Below the pieces are notes generated by a model, which saw only the letters and a list, made by a program, of their open reading frames with translations, was not told the DNA's origin and ran no database searches. From Gammaproteobacteria bacterium (GTDB lineage: Bacteria > Pseudomonadota > Gammaproteobacteria > Steroidobacterales > XN24), in NCBI GenBank assembly GCA_024640085.1, contig JAHEFR010000004.1, positions 104,865-140,868 on the forward strand: a stretch of 36,004 nucleotides of DNA, written 5' to 3'. Of the stretch, positions 19,252 to 26,349 are shown one piece after another; within the stretch, counting starts at the first letter, position 1; each line of letters starts with the position of its first letter. The position numbers and the translations under genes are program-made.

Positions 19252-20655
19252 TTGAGAACGAGTCACGCGCCAGCAACGGCCCCCGCACGTGCGTTCGATG
19301 ACCTCGGACGTCTCCTGCGTGCTGCCCTGAAACCGCTCGGTCGACGCATCGAAGCGGGGCTCATCAGCGTCTCCGTACCGGCCGCGGACATCGATCTGCG
19401 CCCGTTTCTGCCAGACGATGCTCCCGGCTTCTACTGGAGTCGCTCGTCGTCGGGCGCGACCCTCCTCGGCACCGGGATCGCCGCCAGGATCGTCGCCGGT
19501 GGGCCCGATCGGATGGATGCCGTCTCCCGCGGCTTCGCGGCGCTGAAGTCGCGATGGACCCGCCTTGGAGATCCCGGGGCTCCGCTGCCGGCGGCCTTCC
19601 TCGGGTTCGCTTTTGCGCCGGGAGATACGCCGGACAGGGAGTGGAATGGCCTGGCCAACATGGAACTCGTGGTCCCCGAGTTGCTGTGCCGGTTTGTCGG
19701 TGATCAAGGCTGGATCACCGCCAGCGCGACCGTCGGCGAGGACATGGATCCCGGGACGCTGCAACGCCGCTGGATCGAGCGTCTCGAAGGACTGGCCGCC
19801 GCCCAGACCGACTGCGCGATCCCCCTGCCGACGCCGGTGGAGCTGAGACGGGTCGAGGACGGCGCCTGGAACGCGCCCCTGGACAAGGCCCTTGCGGACA
19901 TCCGCGAGGGGCGGCTGGATAAGGTCGTCCTTACGCGTCGGGTCCGCTACTCCATATCCCGACCGCTGAATTGCGGCCGGGTGCTCGAGGCCCTCGAGGC
20001 CGGTCACGAGAATTGCGCCCGCTTTGCCGTGGTCCGGGACGGTTTCTCCCTCGTAGGCGTGTCCCCCGAACGCCTGGTATCGCTGGACGACGGGATGGTC
20101 GCCGCCGACGCCCTGGCAGGCACCGCGCCACGGGGCGCGACCGCGGCGCTGGATGCCACGCTGGCGGACCGTTTGCGCCAGGATCCCAAAGCCCTGGTGG
20201 AGCATCGGATCGTGGTGGATCAGATCCGCGGGGCACTGGAGCCCTGCTGCGGCACCCTGCTGGCGCCCCAGGCGCCGGACGTCATGAGCCTGCCGACGGT
20301 GCATCATCTGTGGAGCCCGGTTGGCGGCCACCTGCGTAACGGCAGCGACCTGCTCGAACTCGCCCGCCGCCTGCATCCCACACCAGCGGTAGGCGGCAGC
20401 CCGCGGACGGCCGCGCTTGAGTGGCTGCAGCAGCACGAGGCGGACAGCCGGGGCTGGTATACCGGCGCGTTCGGCTGGCTGGACGCAGCCGGCAACGGCG
20501 AACTTTCCGTGGTCCTCCGTTGCGGCATCGTCAATGGGACGTCGGTGGATCTGTTCGCCGGCGCCGGCATCGTTGCCGACTCGCGGCCGGATCAGGAGCT
20601 TGCAGAGACCGAATGGAAGCTCTGTACCCTACGAGGGGCGCTGGAACTTGGATGA
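19252..20655 (+). CDS. menF: Isochorismate synthase, menaquinone-specific
   Basis: MenF converts chorismate to isochorismate, opening the menaquinone branch. The 467-residue protein has the chorismate-binding fold. Its C-terminal half carries KVVLTRRVRYSIS, the EHRIVVDQIRGAL helix, LPTVHHLWSPVGGHL, HPTPAVGGSPRTAALEWL and the glycine-rich FAGAGIVADSRPDQELAETE. No ATG or GTG lies in frame upstream of the conserved part, and the frame above it runs antisense through menB. TTG 19252 is therefore the best start, although its ribosome site is poor. The last 8 bases overlap the menD start. Confidence 0.92.
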   Translation: MRTSHAPATAPARAFDDLGRLLRAALKPLGRRIEAGLISVSVPAADIDLRPFLPDDAPGFYWSRSSSGATLLGTGIAARIVAGGPDRMDAVSRGFAALKSRWTRLGDPGAPLPAAFLGFAFAPGDTPDREWNGLANMELVVPELLCRFVGDQGWITASATVGEDMDPGTLQRRWIERLEGLAAAQTDCAIPLPTPVELRRVEDGAWNAPLDKALADIREGRLDKVVLTRRVRYSISRPLNCGRVLEALEAGHENCARFAVVRDGFSLVGVSPERLVSLDDGMVAADALAGTAPRGATAALDATLADRLRQDPKALVEHRIVVDQIRGALEPCCGTLLAPQAPDVMSLPTVHHLWSPVGGHLRNGSDLLELARRLHPTPAVGGSPRTAALEWLQQHEADSRGWYTGAFGWLDAAGNGELSVVLRCGIVNGTSVDLFAGAGIVADSRPDQELAETEWKLCTLRGALELG

Positions 20656-22357
20656 GCCCGGCGGGCGCGACGCCCCGGATCGTGGCGAGTTGAATCTCAA
20701 GGCCGCGGCGGCCCTGCTGCGCGGGCTGGCGGACGGCGGCGTAAGACAGGCGATCCTGTCGCCCGGCTCCCGGTCGTCACCCCTGGCCCTTGCCGCCGAT
20801 CTGTGTCCCCATCTCGAGACGCGGATGTTGCCGGACGAACGGTCCGCAGCTTTCTTTGCCCTTGGCGCGGCGAGAGCCGCGGGCCGACCGGTGGTGGTCA
20901 TCGCCACGTCCGGGACCGCCCCGGCAAACTGGTACCCGGCCGTCATCGAAGCAGCCATGGATCAGGTCCCCCTGGTCCTGGTCAGTGCCGACCGCCCCCC
21001 GGAGCTGTTGCGCACCGGCGCCAATCAGACTATTGACCAGGACCGGCTGTTCGGATCCTTCCCCCGTGATTTCATCCAGCTCCCCGCCCCCGGTAACGGA
21101 GACGATCCCATATACCTGTCCACCGGGCGACGGGCCGCGGATGCGGCCCTTTGGCCATGTCCCGGGCCGGTACATGTGAACTTCGCCTTCAGGGAACCGC
21201 TCCTGCCCCGACAGGGGTATGCGGAACTCCCATGGCCGTCTCCCGCCGCCGATGCCCCGCAGCGACCGCGGGTTCTGCCCGATCCCGCCGCCCTCGAGGC
21301 CCTCGTCTCGAGACTGTCGCGGGGGCCCGGGGTGATCGTCTGTGGCCGATCCGATTACCCACCCGGATTTGCCGAGGCGGTCGTGGCGCTGGCGGAGAGA
21401 CTGCGATGCCCGGTCATCGCGGACCCACTCTCCAACCTGCGCTGGGGCGCCCACGACCGCCGCCGCCTGGTCACCGCTGCCGACATCTTCCTGCGACGCG
21501 AGGCTGGTGGACCGGATGCGGAATGGGTACTACAGTTCGGCGCGGTACCCACCTCCCGGCCCGTCCAGGAGTGGATCGCGGCCCAGGGTGACAGGCTGGC
21601 GCTTATCGCCGGGACCGGCGACTGGCCAGAGCCTTCCCGGCGGACAGCGCTGGTCGTCCACGGCGACGCCGAGAGGGTCGCGACGTCCCTGCTTGAGCGC
21701 GACCTGCCCGCCGCCGACGCGGCCTGGTCGGAACGCTGGCGGGCCCTGGACATGGCTGCCCGGGGACTCGCGGAGGATCCTGGCCTCCGACCGCCCGAAG
21801 CCGATGTGGTCTGTGCCCTCGAGAAGACGCTGCCCCCGGGTGGAGCGCTGTTCGTGGGCAGCTCGATGCCGATCCGCTCGCTGGATGCTTTCGCCCGGGG
21901 CCGGCCGGACCCGCTGGGAGCGGTCGGGAATCGCGGCGCCAGCGGGATCGACGGCTGTGTCTCGACCCTGGCCGGAATCGCCAGCTGCCGCCCCAGTGTC
22001 GGACTGATCGGGGATCTCGCGCTCTACCACGACATGAACGGGCTCCTGGCGGCTCGCGAAATCCCGGGCAAGCTCGTCGTCATCGAGAACGGCGGGGGCG
22101 GCATCTTCGGTCTGCTGCCGCAACGGGACCATCCCGATTTCGAACGACTCTGGCGCACGCCCACGGGTCTCGATTGCGCACGGATCGCCTCACTCTACGG
22201 GATGCCACACCGGGTGGCGGAACCCGGCGATGCCCTGGCCGCGGTCCTTGAGGAGCCGGGCGAGGACCGAGCCATGTGGCTGATCGAGGTCCCGGTGGAC
22301 GCGCAACTGAGCTGGGACCGCCACCGGGCTCTGTGGGACGCCGCCGCGAACCTGTGA
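20648..22357 (+). CDS. menD: SEPHCHC synthase (MenD)
   Basis: MenD adds the succinic semialdehyde unit from 2-oxoglutarate to isochorismate, using thiamine diphosphate. The 569-residue length is normal. Key blocks are RQAILSPGSRSSPLALAA at the N-terminus, DERSAAFFALGAARAAGRPV with the ThDP-activating glutamate, TSGTAPANWYPAVIEA, SADRPPELL...ANQTIDQ and the C-terminal GDLALYHDMNGLL with ENGGGGIFGLLPQ. TTG 20648 is chosen: it overlaps the menF stop by 8 bases (TTGGATGA) and has GAGGGG upstream. A second TTG at 20690 is possible. It forms a menFD unit that may continue into lutABC, 54 bases on. Confidence 0.95.
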   Translation: MDEPGGRDAPDRGELNLKAAAALLRGLADGGVRQAILSPGSRSSPLALAADLCPHLETRMLPDERSAAFFALGAARAAGRPVVVIATSGTAPANWYPAVIEAAMDQVPLVLVSADRPPELLRTGANQTIDQDRLFGSFPRDFIQLPAPGNGDDPIYLSTGRRAADAALWPCPGPVHVNFAFREPLLPRQGYAELPWPSPAADAPQRPRVLPDPAALEALVSRLSRGPGVIVCGRSDYPPGFAEAVVALAERLRCPVIADPLSNLRWGAHDRRRLVTAADIFLRREAGGPDAEWVLQFGAVPTSRPVQEWIAAQGDRLALIAGTGDWPEPSRRTALVVHGDAERVATSLLERDLPAADAAWSERWRALDMAARGLAEDPGLRPPEADVVCALEKTLPPGGALFVGSSMPIRSLDAFARGRPDPLGAVGNRGASGIDGCVSTLAGIASCRPSVGLIGDLALYHDMNGLLAAREIPGKLVVIENGGGGIFGLLPQRDHPDFERLWRTPTGLDCARIASLYGMPHRVAEPGDALAAVLEEPGEDRAMWLIEVPVDAQLSWDRHRALWDAAANL

Positions 22358-22411
22358 CGCCGGAATACCCGGCGCAGCATAGAGGCGCCGCCGCCAGGAC
22401 GTTATGATCCG

Positions 22412-23197
22412 GTGATGTTGCCCTCCGGGAGTTTGACCTTGGTCCCCAATCGCGAGCCCGTCACGGGACGCCGCGTCCAGTTCATGATCAGCTGCCTGTG
22501 CGACGCTTTTTTCGATGATGCGGCACGTGCGGCGATGGACTGCCTCGAGCGTGCCGGATGCGCCGTGACCTGCCCGTCGGACCAGACATGCTGCGGCCAG
22601 CCCGCATACACCTCGGGCGACTGGGACGCCTACCGACAGGTCGTGCGCCACGTCGCCCATGTCTTCCATGGAGACGAGCCGATCGTGGTGGCCTCCGGAT
22701 CCTGCGCCACGGCCATGTTCCACGAGGCGCCGATCGCGTTCGAGGGCCAGGCGGACCTGCCGGAGATCCGGCGTCTGGCGTCACGGACCTGGGAGTTGAC
22801 GGATTTCCTCGTCAACGGGCTCGGCGTCCGCGCCTGGTCCGGCCGCCTCCCCGCCCGTATCGCGGTCCACGACGGCTGCCATACCCGCGGGACACCGACG
22901 ATCCGTGCGGTGCGCGCGCTCCTCGGCGGCATCGACGGTCTCGAAGTGCTCGCCTTCCCGGACCAGGACCAGTGCTGCGGGTTCGGCGGCGTGTTCTCGA
23001 TCTCCCACCCGCACATCTCCGCCGCCATGGGCCGCCAAAAGGTGGATAACGTCCGCTCCGTGTCGCCGGATTTCGTGGTTTCGGCAGACCTGAGTTGCCT
23101 GATGCACCAGCAGGGTATCGCCGGGCGGCAGAACCGGGAGTATCCCGTCAGGTACGTGGCACAGGTGCTGCGGGACGCAGCCGGAGGCCCGGCGTGA
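22412..23197 (+). CDS. lutA: Lactate utilization iron-sulfur protein A (LutA/LldE)
   Basis: LutA is one of three subunits of the LutABC (LldEFG) complex needed to oxidise L-lactate to pyruvate. This 261-residue protein has two CCG domains, the cysteine-rich motifs that bind heterodisulfide-reductase-type clusters: TCCGQPAYTSGDW (Cys60/61) and QCCGFGGVFSISHP (Cys188/189), each preceded by a further conserved Cys (FMISCLCD; HDGCH). The start is uncertain: GTG 22412 or ATG 22415 gives about 20 extra residues ahead of the usual opening, which here reads VQFMISCL with no start codon at that point. It follows menD by 54 bases and overlaps lutB by GTGA. Confidence 0.9.
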   Translation: MMLPSGSLTLVPNREPVTGRRVQFMISCLCDAFFDDAARAAMDCLERAGCAVTCPSDQTCCGQPAYTSGDWDAYRQVVRHVAHVFHGDEPIVVASGSCATAMFHEAPIAFEGQADLPEIRRLASRTWELTDFLVNGLGVRAWSGRLPARIAVHDGCHTRGTPTIRAVRALLGGIDGLEVLAFPDQDQCCGFGGVFSISHPHISAAMGRQKVDNVRSVSPDFVVSADLSCLMHQQGIAGRQNREYPVRYVAQVLRDAAGGPA

Positions 23198-24603
23198 GCC
23201 GGCAGGCGCTGGATGCCTTTGCCGCCGGCATCGAATCGGAGGTGCTCGAGGCAATCGAGATCGGCGCCCGCAGCGGCGTGGACAAGCGTCTCGCCACGCT
23301 GACAGAGGACTACGCCGATGCGGACGCCCTCAGGCGGCTGGCGGGCCAGGTCCGTCAGCACACCCTGGATCACCTGGATGAATACCTGGCGAGCGCGGAG
23401 GAACGGCTGACAAGTCACGGCGCCCAGGTTCACTTCGCCGCATCGCCAGACCGGGCCCTGGAGATGATCCTGGATATCGTCCGGGCCAGTGGCACCCGCG
23501 TGATCACCAAGTCCAAGAGCATGGCGAGCGAGGAACTGGACCTTACCCGGCGGCTCACAGAGGAAGGCTTCGAGCCGGTGGAGACGGACCTGGGCGAGTT
23601 CGTGGTGCAGCTCGACGGCGACCGCCCCAGCCACATCGTCAAGCCGATCATCCACAAGAACCGGAGAGACGTGGCCAGGTCCTTCGAGCGCTGCGGTCTC
23701 GGTGATTATGACGACGACCCGGAGACCATCACCCGTCGCGCCAGAGCCTATATGCGTGACAAGTTCCTCGATGCGCGTGTGACCATGACAGGCGCCAACT
23801 TCATCTCCGCCGAGTCGGGCCGGGTGGCAGTCGTCACCAACGAGGGCAACGCCCGCTTCGGTCTGGCGGCGGCCGACGTCCACATCGTGCTGGCCGGGAT
23901 CGACAAGGTGATCCCCAGAGACCGGGACCTGGCGCTCCTGCTCAGCCTGCTGATCCGCTCGGCTACCGGTCAGCGCATCACGTCCTACGTGGAACTGGTG
24001 GCCGGCCCGCGGCTGGCCGACCGACCCTCCGGGCCTCGTGAGATGCACGTGATCTTCCTCGACGCCAACCGGTCATCGGTCGTGGGTAGCGACATGGCGC
24101 CGATCCTGCGCTGCATCCGCTGCGGCGCCTGCATGAACGCGTGCCCGGTCTACCGGCTGAGTTCCGGACACGCCTACCGCGGCGTCTATCCTGGCCCCAT
24201 GGGCGCGGTCCTCGGACCCCTGCTGGCCGGCAATGAAGGCTTCGCTGCGGTGGCCGACCTGGCCCGGGCGTCTACCTTCTGCGGCGCCTGCCGGGACGTG
24301 TGCCCGGTGGACATCCCCATCCCGGACCTGCTGGCGCGGCTACGGGCCCGGTCCGTCCGCGAGGGCGTGATCCTTGCCCGGGCAGGCGTCCCGAGCATGG
24401 CGGGATACCTGCTGCTGGCCCGTCATCCCCGGCTCTGGCGGCTCGCCATGGGACTCGGCCGGGTGCTGGACTGGCTGCCCTTGAGAAGGCTGCCGCTGGC
24501 CTCCATCCGAGCCTGGTTCGACAGCCGCACGCTGCCCAGGTGGCGCGGCGCCCAATTCCGTAAAGACGTGAAGCGCGGTCGCCGGGAGCAAGAAGATGGC
24601 TGA
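23194..24603 (+). CDS. lutB: Lactate utilization iron-sulfur protein B (LutB/LldF)
   Basis: LutB is the electron-transfer subunit of the lactate-oxidising complex. The 469-residue protein has an N-terminal LUD domain (TRVITKSKSMASEE and ETDLGEFVVQL at about 101-140; TGANFISAESGRVAVVTNEGN at about 199-219). A ferredoxin-like part follows with CIRCGACMNACP (Cys307, 310, 313, 317) and FCGACRDVCPVDIP (Cys363, 366, 370). The C-terminal tail is basic. GTG 23194 overlaps the lutA stop by 4 bases and follows GGAGG. The 3' end overlaps lutC by 8 bases. Electrons are probably passed to the respiratory quinone pool, which suits the men neighbours; that link is inference. Confidence 0.93.
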   Translation: MSRQALDAFAAGIESEVLEAIEIGARSGVDKRLATLTEDYADADALRRLAGQVRQHTLDHLDEYLASAEERLTSHGAQVHFAASPDRALEMILDIVRASGTRVITKSKSMASEELDLTRRLTEEGFEPVETDLGEFVVQLDGDRPSHIVKPIIHKNRRDVARSFERCGLGDYDDDPETITRRARAYMRDKFLDARVTMTGANFISAESGRVAVVTNEGNARFGLAAADVHIVLAGIDKVIPRDRDLALLLSLLIRSATGQRITSYVELVAGPRLADRPSGPREMHVIFLDANRSSVVGSDMAPILRCIRCGACMNACPVYRLSSGHAYRGVYPGPMGAVLGPLLAGNEGFAAVADLARASTFCGACRDVCPVDIPIPDLLARLRARSVREGVILARAGVPSMAGYLLLARHPRLWRLAMGLGRVLDWLPLRRLPLASIRAWFDSRTLPRWRGAQFRKDVKRGRREQEDG

Positions 24604-25231
24604 TGATCGCGAGAGCGTCTTCGCGTCACTGCGGGCATCTCTCGGGAGGCTGGAGCGACGCACGCCATATCCGGACTACCCGGCCGACGCCGCCACGCCG
24701 CCGGCCCGACGGGGCACCGGTCCCGGCCTGTTCCGCCAGCGACTGGAAGCCGGCAACACGATCGTCATCGAGGGGGCCGACGCCCTGGCTGGCCTGCTGC
24801 GGGACCGGGGCGTGCGGACCGGTTACTGCGATCCCGACCTCGTCCCGCTGCTGGCTACCGCGCTGGGGCCGGAGTTCGAATTGCGCGCCGGCTTCGATCG
24901 GAACCGGGCGGATGATTATGAATTCGGCATTACCAGGGCCTCGGCCGGCATCGTCGAGACCGGGACGCTGGTGCTCAAGGATCAGCACACGTCCGACCGG
25001 CTGGGTGCCGTCGCCCCCTGGATACACGTGGCCTGCCTGGAAGGCGGACGGCTTCACGAAACACTCGCCCAGGCCTTCGATGACCTGGGAGACGATCCGA
25101 ACGTGGTCCTGGTCTCGGGGCATTCCCAGACCGCCGACGTGGAGGGCATCATGATCCACGGGGTACATGGCCCCGGCGAGCAGGTATGCCTGCTGCTGGA
25201 AAGTGAAAAAGAAACGGAGACCGGCCCATGA
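24596..25231 (+). CDS. lutC: Lactate utilization protein C (LutC/LldG)
   Basis: The 211-residue LUD-domain protein is the third subunit of LutABC. It has the family blocks RADDYEFGITRASAGIVETG and LVLKDQHTSDRLGAVAPWIH, followed by VVLVSGHSQTADVEGIMIHG and GVHGPGEQVCLLLE at the end. It has no iron-sulfur cysteines, as expected. ATG 24596 lies within the lutB 3' end (8-base overlap), and its stop overlaps the next start by ATGA, so four genes are translationally chained. No lactate permease, LldR/LutR regulator or separate lactate dehydrogenase is visible nearby. Confidence 0.92.
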   Translation: MADDRESVFASLRASLGRLERRTPYPDYPADAATPPARRGTGPGLFRQRLEAGNTIVIEGADALAGLLRDRGVRTGYCDPDLVPLLATALGPEFELRAGFDRNRADDYEFGITRASAGIVETGTLVLKDQHTSDRLGAVAPWIHVACLEGGRLHETLAQAFDDLGDDPNVVLVSGHSQTADVEGIMIHGVHGPGEQVCLLLESEKETETGP

Positions 25232-25623
25232 ACATCAAGCCACCCAGCCAACTCCCGGCGATCCGGACCAACATGCTGCCCAAGGACACCAATGCCTACG
25301 GGTCCATTTTCGGGGGCGTAATCCTGTCCCTCATCGACCTGGCGGCAGCCAACGAGGCAGAGCGCCAGGCGCCACATCGGTACCTGACCGTGGCCATGGA
25401 CCAGATCGCGTTCCACGCGCCGGTCCGGGTGGGTGATATCGTGACACTGTGGGCCGAGACCCTCCATGTGGGCCGTAGCTCGATCCGGGTGCGGGTAAAG
25501 GTTCTCGCGAGAGCACGCCGCAGCCCGCACGAAAACGAGGTCACCACCGCCGAGGTCACCATGGTCGCCGTGGACGAGGCAGGACGGCCGATACCGATCC
25601 TGCCGGAGCCGGTCAGCGTCTGA
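25228..25623 (+). CDS. Hotdog-fold acyl-CoA thioesterase (YciA-like)
   Basis: A 131-residue single-hotdog protein of the acyl-CoA hydrolase family. MLPKDTNAYGSIFGGVILSLID contains the usual N-x-x-G-x-x-FGG segment and the catalytic Asp in LIDLAA. FHAPVRVGDIVTLWAETLHVGRSSI then forms the second conserved block. It hydrolyses acyl-CoA in the cytoplasm; its substrate is not clear. It overlaps the lutC stop by 4 bases (ATGA), so it is co-translated with the lactate genes. Menaquinone synthesis needs a DHNA-CoA thioesterase (MenI), which is also a hotdog protein and is otherwise absent here. This gene is a conceivable candidate but looks more like YciA. Confidence 0.85.
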   Translation: MNIKPPSQLPAIRTNMLPKDTNAYGSIFGGVILSLIDLAAANEAERQAPHRYLTVAMDQIAFHAPVRVGDIVTLWAETLHVGRSSIRVRVKVLARARRSPHENEVTTAEVTMVAVDEAGRPIPILPEPVSV

Positions 25624-25681
25624 CCGCGTACGGTGGCGGACTGGCGGCGGAGGCGGAGAAGAAATCACTCTCCACAAGAAT

Positions 25682-25711
25682 CTAAGGGGACCCCGGGCAG
25701 GGTCCCCTTAG
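25682..25711 (-). terminator. Strong hairpin, probable terminator
   Basis: A perfect 12-bp stem, CTAAGGGGACCC with GGGTCCCCTTAG, encloses a 6-base loop (25694-25699). On the minus strand it is followed by ATTCTTGT, a weak U-tract. On the plus strand it is followed by CGAGGG with no U-tract. It therefore fits best as the end of a minus-strand RNA, such as the putative sRNA that starts at 25761 or the yegP transcript. It could also slow plus-strand transcripts leaving the lut operon. Confidence 0.55.
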
Positions 25712-25761
25712 CGAGGGAAGGTCAGTGGAGGTAATCGGAGAAAGAGCTTGTAACTACCTCC
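25682..25761 (-). ncRNA. Putative FNR/Anr-activated small RNA
   Basis: No protein is evident in 25624-25851. On the minus strand the region has an FNR-type box centred at 25802.5, TAAATT (25774-25769) as -10, and a purine start at 25761 exactly 41.5 bases from the box centre, the class II FNR arrangement. The predicted RNA is about 80 nt. Its 5' end folds at once: GGAGGTA (25761-25755) pairs with TACCTCC (25733-25727) around a pyrimidine-rich 21-base loop. A 15-base linker with CCTTCCCTC follows, then the 12-bp terminator hairpin. C/U-rich unpaired segments could pair with ribosome sites, as in FnrS-like RNAs. All of this is structural inference; I recognise no known RNA family. Confidence 0.45.
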
Positions 25762-25768
25762 GGGGCTT

Positions 25769-25809
25769 AATTTAGAGATATCGGAAACAATTACATTGAC
25801 CTGGATCAA
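25769..25809 (-). promoter_or_regulatory. FNR/Anr-type box with class II promoter spacing
   Basis: On the minus strand TTGAT-CCAG-GTCAA (25809-25796) matches the TTGAT-N4-ATCAA FNR/CRP-family consensus at 9 of 10 positions. A -10-like TAAATT (25774-25769, 4/6) follows. A start at G25761 would place the box at -41.5. In the plus direction no -10 sits at the matching distance and transcription would run antisense into the yegP-like gene. Confidence 0.5.
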
Positions 25810-25851
25810 CTTCGGCCAGAATAATTGTCCGACCCTCGAAACCCCTGTCCC

Positions 25852-26181
25852 TCAGGCCTCGGTCACCGGTGCGTCAGGTGCGTTCCTTTTGACCGAATCG
25901 ATGCCATTGGCGCAACCGGAAGCGGTCTTGTACATCTGGCTCTGGCCGACCACCTGGCCGTTGGTGGCCTTGAGCACGAAGTATTGCCGGCCATCCGTAG
26001 CGGCCTTGGTCTCGAACGCCCCGTCACGCTGGGAATTCTTCCGGACCGAAGCGATCCCGTTGGCGCAGTCGTCCTTGGCCTTGTAGCCCTGGCTGGTCAG
26101 AACCACCTCACCATTGCCGGATTTCAGGCGGAAGAAATGCTCGCCGTTTTTGCCTGTGTATGCCTCGAATTTTCCTGCCAT
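25852..26181 (-). CDS. YegP-like DUF1508 protein, two tandem repeats
   Basis: This 109-residue protein consists of two copies of the roughly 50-residue DUF1508 module. Copy one reads KFEAYTGKNGEHFFRLKSGN and ends CANGIASVRKNS; copy two reads AFETKAATDGRQYFVLKATN and ends CANGIDSVKRNA. The length is that of E. coli YegP (about 110). The start is ATG 26181, after a GGAGCAG ribosome site; the open frame above it, to 26328, looks like non-coding leader. The function of the family is unknown. The 3' end faces the putative sRNA region. Confidence 0.88.
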   Translation of the reverse strand: MAGKFEAYTGKNGEHFFRLKSGNGEVVLTSQGYKAKDDCANGIASVRKNSQRDGAFETKAATDGRQYFVLKATNGQVVGQSQMYKTASGCANGIDSVKRNAPDAPVTEA

Positions 26182-26349
26182 CGTCTGCTCCATTCGCTCA
26201 AGCTCTGCGTCGTCGCCACCCCGGTCGGGGTGGCCCTCGATGCCCAGTCTCTCGATTTGCTCCAGCGCACATTCTGCGACGGTCGTGCGCGGGAGCACAA
26301 AAGACATGCTGTTCCGTATTCGGGGCACAGCCGCCGGCGGATTCGCGCC

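Follow-up and report, generated by a model that had tools for sequence, protein, structure and literature searches.

The short gap between two convergent genes in the DNA studied here poses the question of whether it houses a small RNA gene of its own, switched on from an oxygen-responsive promoter, or simply the tail of a neighboring mRNA. The gap lies within a stretch of 36,004 nucleotides (the window) and is bounded on one side by a yegP-like gene (25852 to 26328, minus strand, stop at 25852), whose product matches PF07411 twice, corresponding to two DUF1508 domains, and appears to begin at MAGKFE inside the open reading frame. On the other side is the gene for a YciA-like hotdog thioesterase (25228 to 25623, plus strand, stop at 25623), which stands at the end of a lut gene cluster; it matches PF03061 over the cutoff, and its score against PRK10694 YciA is 72.8 bits, under the cutoff of 162. 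Our analysis points to a stand-alone, FnrS-like small RNA activated by FNR, with a CU-rich loop and linker that pair with ribosome sites, as the probable reading. Judged from sequence, the gene and its promoter are well supported, and transcription, control by oxygen, pairing with ribosome sites, and the targets are what we infer from them.

On the minus strand, the predicted elements follow one another in the order FNR-type box, −10 hexamer, start G, 5′ hairpin, linker, and terminator, giving a gene of about 88 nt (25674 to 25761) that is recovered both by BLAST and by a covariance model, R1. The FNR/Anr-type box TTGATCCAGGTCAA (25796 to 25809, minus strand) matches TTGATNNNNATCAA at 9 of 10 positions, its center lies 41.5 bases before the putative start G at 25761, and the −10 hexamer TAAATT (25769 to 25774, minus strand) follows the box after 21 bases; these three elements, like the C/U-rich linker, are found where the initial annotation had placed them. 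The 5′ hairpin (25727 to 25761, minus strand) is also present, with 10 pairs, two of them G-U, instead of the 7 bp described earlier, and with a loop, ACAAGCUCUUUCUCC, that contains the conserved sequence CUCUUUCUCC. It is followed by the single-stranded linker ACUGACCUUCCCUCG (ACTGACCTTCCCTCG; 25712 to 25726, minus strand), which is the likely pairing region, and by an intrinsic terminator (25674 to 25711, minus strand) made up of a stem, 25711 to 25682, and a weak U-tract with the tail ATTCTTGT. The terminator hairpin had been called a perfect 12-bp helix with a weak tail; the 12 Watson-Crick pairs and the weak tail are there, together with one extra T-G pair. Neither ATG, GTG, nor TTG occurs from the start to the end of the terminator stem, and the copy in a related genus has a single GTG, within a terminator arm, and is likewise free of start codons upstream of the terminator, as expected of a noncoding RNA.

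The window holds one box match at 9/10, against 0.29 expected, and seven further matches at 8/10. Shuffling the window produced at least one 9/10 box in 26 of 100 cases, so the box by itself says little for a promoter, and what counts is whether the layout has been kept. Three genomes bear on this: that of the window itself (G000), one from the same genus (G001), and one from another genus of the same family (G004). The promoter and 5′ hairpin of the G001 copy are hidden by 100 N, so the promoter can be read in one relative only, G004, where the box TTGATCTGGGTCAT (locus L003, 1609 to 1622) matches at 8/10 and is followed, after a gap of exactly 21 bases as in G000, by the −10 hexamer TAGATT. 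The same 3.4-kb G004 locus contains one 9/10 and three further 8/10 matches, so that it is the position of this box, and not its score, that counts. Between G000 and G004, the box is identical at 11 of 14 positions and the −10 hexamer at 5 of 6, whereas the spacer between them is identical at only 8 of 21 (38%) and the flanks, compared without gaps, at 7 of 28 upstream and 13 of 37 downstream (25 to 35%). Fourfold degenerate sites in the thioesterase gene (17/61, or 28%, identical) and the yegP-like gene (17/31, or 55%) indicate that neutral positions have largely drifted between these genomes. The predicted start G of G004 lies 40.5 bases from the box center, compared with 41.5 for the predicted start in G000. 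Conservation of the box, the spacing, and the hairpins, the absence of which would have spoken against the earlier proposal, is thus seen in the sole relative with a readable promoter, and it supports a class II FNR-type promoter layout ahead of a putative terminated noncoding RNA.

Such a promoter would call for an FNR-type oxygen sensor, and the G000 genome encodes an FNR-like regulator. A search with PF13545 returned two G000 proteins, one of which carries CxxCx5C near the N terminus, a further cysteine downstream in SVCVLPF, and ETVSR within its recognition helix, features that we take to be those of FNR and to mark this protein as FNR-like. Among NCBIfam models, it scores highest against PRK11161 Fnr, at 190.5 bits (under the cutoff of 228). 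The other protein appears CRP/Vfr-like by eye, and no third member fit to be an NO-sensing DNR was found in the assembly, which is 95.8% complete.

It is conservation, rather than the box as such, that carries the case for a real gene, and on the sequence evidence that case is well supported. A BLAST search of 59 genomes (G000 and relatives) gave two strong matches beyond the window's own, in G001 (E value of 1.5e-23, for the 3′ part) and in G004 (1.6e-11), with all others at 0.003 or weaker. The R1 E values are 1.9e-20 for G000, 1.2e-17 for G004, and 7.5e-11 for G001; R1 was built from exactly these three copies, and the BLAST values are independent of it. The G000 and G004 RNAs are identical at 62 of 81 positions (77%), including 14 of 15 in the linker and 12 of 15 in the loop, and CTGACCTTCCCTCG within the linker is unchanged in all three copies. 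G001 keeps the 3′ two-thirds, comprising the linker and the terminator, with a good U-tract, GTTTTTCT, after the stem. In G004, a yegP-like gene and a thioesterase gene border the RNA in the same arrangement as in G000, and the thioesterase gene also adjoins the RNA in G001.

Within the family, a covariance-model search with R1, of the kind proposed in the initial annotation, matched three of the seven genomes (G000, G001, and G004, from which R1 was built), and the RNA is missing from the other four. Across the order, R1 matched 4 of 396 genomes, the fourth being G142 (E value of 0.05), which we rejected as a homolog: several pairs are broken, and its 2.3-kb locus has no box of 8/10 or better. 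Across the class, it matched 5 of 369 genomes (G000, G496, G527, G719, and G729), a sample that evidently leaves out G001 and G004, and only G000 was convincing. When aligned, G496, G527, and G719 proved to have terminator-like hairpins or broken pairs, and G729 matched through the terminator part alone; weak matches in G003 and G002 look by eye like ordinary terminators. The RNA appears to be restricted to some members of a single family, with the proviso that searches of more than 40 genomes used stricter filters, which weak homologs could escape.

Folding of positions 25761 to 25668 in G000 gave a z score of −3.46, with none of 200 shuffles as stable, and the whole fold of the G004 copy gave −5.37, again with 0 of 200. 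Stability of the whole fold is of limited value as proof, because the terminator alone can yield it. Taken by itself, the 5′ hairpin gave a z score of −3.00 in G000 (1 of 200 shuffles as stable) and a modest −1.57 in G004 (15 of 200), and when the G004 hairpin was folded two bases shorter, 171 of 200 shuffles were as stable. In a three-copy alignment registered by hand, with 22 modeled pairs, all 56 of the cells with letters on both sides form pairs; shuffles averaged 94%, and 16 of 500 reached 100%. Covariation backs the terminator, because 3 of its 12 modeled stem pairs have changed on both sides. All 10 pairs of the 5′ hairpin form in G000 and G004, with three one-sided changes and, in this three-copy alignment, no two-sided change, so that this hairpin agrees with the data without being proven by them. 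In the predicted G000 and G004 folds, the linker is unpaired, and the loop is open in the G000 fold, with three extra predicted pairs inside the loop of G004. If a transcript continued past the terminator to about 25660 (25660 to 25738), pairing of GATTACCTCCACT with TGTGGAGAGTGATT would disrupt the 5′ hairpin in part; a similar CTCCA/TGGAG option exists in G001 and, by eye, is absent in G004.

The neighborhood differs between genomes with and without the RNA. The thioesterase gene was found in all seven genomes of the family, and in each of the four that lack the RNA, an acetate kinase gene (PF00871) faces it in convergent orientation, suggesting that the RNA and the yegP-like gene take the slot that a fermentation enzyme occupies in those four. 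The corresponding loci of G002, G005, and G006, of about 3.4 kb each, contain no box of 8/10 or better, and that of G003 contains one, inside the thioesterase gene. Within the window, positions 20417 to 25623 carry menD, three lut-type genes, and the YciA-like thioesterase gene in a row. In G004, a menD-like gene lies immediately before the thioesterase gene, without intervening lut genes, and in G003, lutB/lutC-like genes, the thioesterase gene, and the acetate kinase gene occur together.

Limited pattern searches of G000, G001, and G004 revealed no ribosome-site target shared between genomes. With one mismatch allowed and with the RNA gene itself included in the counts, the linker complement YGRGGGRRGGTYRG occurred 55 times in G000, 41 times in G001, and 36 times in G004, compared with 43, 36, and 39 for reversed controls; the linker complement is hardly commoner than its reversed control. 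Inspection of the 54 other G000 sites and 35 other G004 sites showed that few precede a believable start. One linker site does recur in an orthologous pair of genes (L171 in G004 and L226 in G000), but we did not accept it as a target at a ribosome site, because it falls deep within the coding sequence of this transporter-like gene, at a place where the protein is conserved by eye. The loop complement followed by a start codon, GGAGAAAG(N0-12)ATG, occurred 20 times in G000, 31 times in G001, and 20 times in G004, against 2, 7, and 5 for reversed controls, an excess that is not telling, because ribosome sites in general would give it. For GGGAAGG(N0-12)ATG, the counts were 120, 62, and 59, with reversed controls of 35, 33, and 21. 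The loop sites led to 34 candidate frames of at least 60 amino acids, two of which are one gene and several of which are clearly not genes, and there was no orthologous pair among these frames between G000, G001, and G004. The best G000 site belongs to a gene for a cytochrome P460 (PF16694), whose ribosome site GGAGAAAGAGC could form 11 bp with the loop; this site is not shared, since neither G001 nor G004 gave a match to the protein. The P460 gene (L313; G000:C41:11600-13500) lies downstream of a gene that by eye is AhpD/carboxymuconolactone-decarboxylase-like. Other loop sites lie before genes that, named by eye, are HiPIP-like and DUF2282-like in G004 and monooxygenase-like and rubrerythrin-like in G001.

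These observations allow other readings to be weighed against a stand-alone small RNA. A scan of positions 25500 to 26000 showed no further terminator after the yegP-like gene, and the yegP-like mRNA therefore likely ends at the same terminator. On this basis, the stretch could be no more than the 3′ untranslated region of that mRNA, including its terminator, with a box that is fortuitous or decaying and a small RNA that arises by processing, and the ease with which such boxes occur in shuffled windows and elsewhere in the G004 locus fits this account. We nevertheless consider it unlikely, because the box, the −10 hexamer, and the gap between them have been kept in G004 while the spacer and the flanks drifted, a constraint that a mere 3′ end would not need. 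The plus strand offers a different use for the box: a sigma-70-like match, TTGACC-18-AATAAT (25796 to 25825, plus strand), overlaps it and scores 10/12, against a mean of 0.2 such matches per shuffle, so that the box might belong to a promoter on the plus strand or act in both directions. The AATAAT is, by eye, absent from that place in G004, however, and transcription from such a promoter would enter the yegP-like gene in the antisense direction, making this the least probable of the accounts considered and, in our view, very improbable.

The promoter-driven RNA could also be real and yet work in another way, by binding a protein such as Rsm/Csr or by sponging another RNA. Such a role would agree with the failure of a common ribosome-site target to emerge and with the presence of GGA motifs in the RNA, namely GGAGG at the 5′ end and GGGGAC in the terminator. 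These motifs sit in stems and not in loops, however, and the best-kept stretch of the molecule is the unpaired CU-rich linker, so that we give a protein-binding or sponging role a small chance, a little below that of a processed mRNA end. The preferred reading, a small RNA that pairs with ribosome sites, rests for its last step on the pyrimidine stretches being conserved and mostly unpaired and on known cases. In this reading, FNR dimers would bind the box at −41.5 as oxygen falls and recruit RNA polymerase by class II activation, and an RNA of about 88 nt, ending at its own terminator, would be made. The 5′ hairpin would protect the end of the RNA and show CUCUUUCUCC in its loop, while the CU-rich linker would be open too. 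Through base pairing, loop and linker would then most likely bind purine-rich ribosome sites on mRNAs that are unneeded, or newly needed, without oxygen, a step modeled on FnrS in Escherichia coli.

An RNA under FNR or Anr makes an oxygen regulator act after transcription as well, and several such RNAs are known. FnrS is an independent RNA that has its own terminator, Rfam contains a model of it, and the fnrS of gonococci was later named AniS. The Rfam scan gave no match at the gathering score in the whole window, and FnrS was absent among subthreshold matches up to an E value of 10 for the window and G004 copies, so that the FnrS and G000 RNAs are without a sequence or structure match to each other. 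In anatomy, they are alike: PMC3032703 describes FnrS of the Enterobacteriaceae, also treated in PMC5703892, as having a class II FNR site centered at −41.5, the distance seen in G000, and PMC11340327 has FnrS pairing at the yieP ribosome site. PMC3032703 also covers the anaerobically induced gonococcal fnrS and regards it as probably equivalent in function. That RNA has a predicted −10 together with a class II FNR site and a rho-independent terminator, the same anatomy outside the Enterobacteriaceae; we set it beside the G000 RNA by description, and nothing like it emerged from the Rfam scans. PhrS and SicX of Pseudomonas aeruginosa, compared by description only, resemble the G000 RNA as small RNAs under FNR-type control, being under Anr, an FNR-like oxygen regulator, according to PMC5703892 and PMC10247376; in the latter, pairing with a 5′ untranslated region is the proposed mode of action of SicX, which activates ubiUVT translation without Hfq. 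PMC8139620 reviews the control of nitrate respiration.

A likeness of another kind is to sX13 of Xanthomonas, whose C-rich unpaired motifs are thought, in PMC3771888, to base-pair with G-rich motifs close to where translation begins, although sX13 has three hairpins and the G000 and G004 RNAs have two. The G004 copy gave a full-length match to sX13 (RF02232) of 12.3 bits (E value of 1.9 to 4.9), far from the gathering score of 50; the window copy gave none up to an E value of 10, and none of 39 relatives scored over the cutoff. On this evidence, the RNA is not homologous to sX13. Among the open-license papers that our literature searches returned, none describes the G000 RNA, as judged by title and abstract beginning. 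The earlier statement that it belongs to no described family holds for sequence, given the Rfam result, but not for its mode of action, which is not new, because FNR-activated small RNAs are well known as a kind; as far as our searches go, the sequence family is new and the kind is known. A more ambitious proposal, which we put forward tentatively and regard as possible but somewhat doubtful, is that this is a new small RNA family in part of one bacterial family, an independently arisen RNA arm of FNR with two separate modules for pairing with ribosome sites, the loop CUCUUUCUCC and the linker GACCUUCCCUCG. FnrS of the Enterobacteriaceae was not seen outside that family, according to PMC3032703. 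The predicted gene is short and well bounded; enterobacteria, Neisseria, and Pseudomonas each own an RNA of this kind, and one more example, distinct in sequence, would favor the idea of repeated evolution of such RNA arms.
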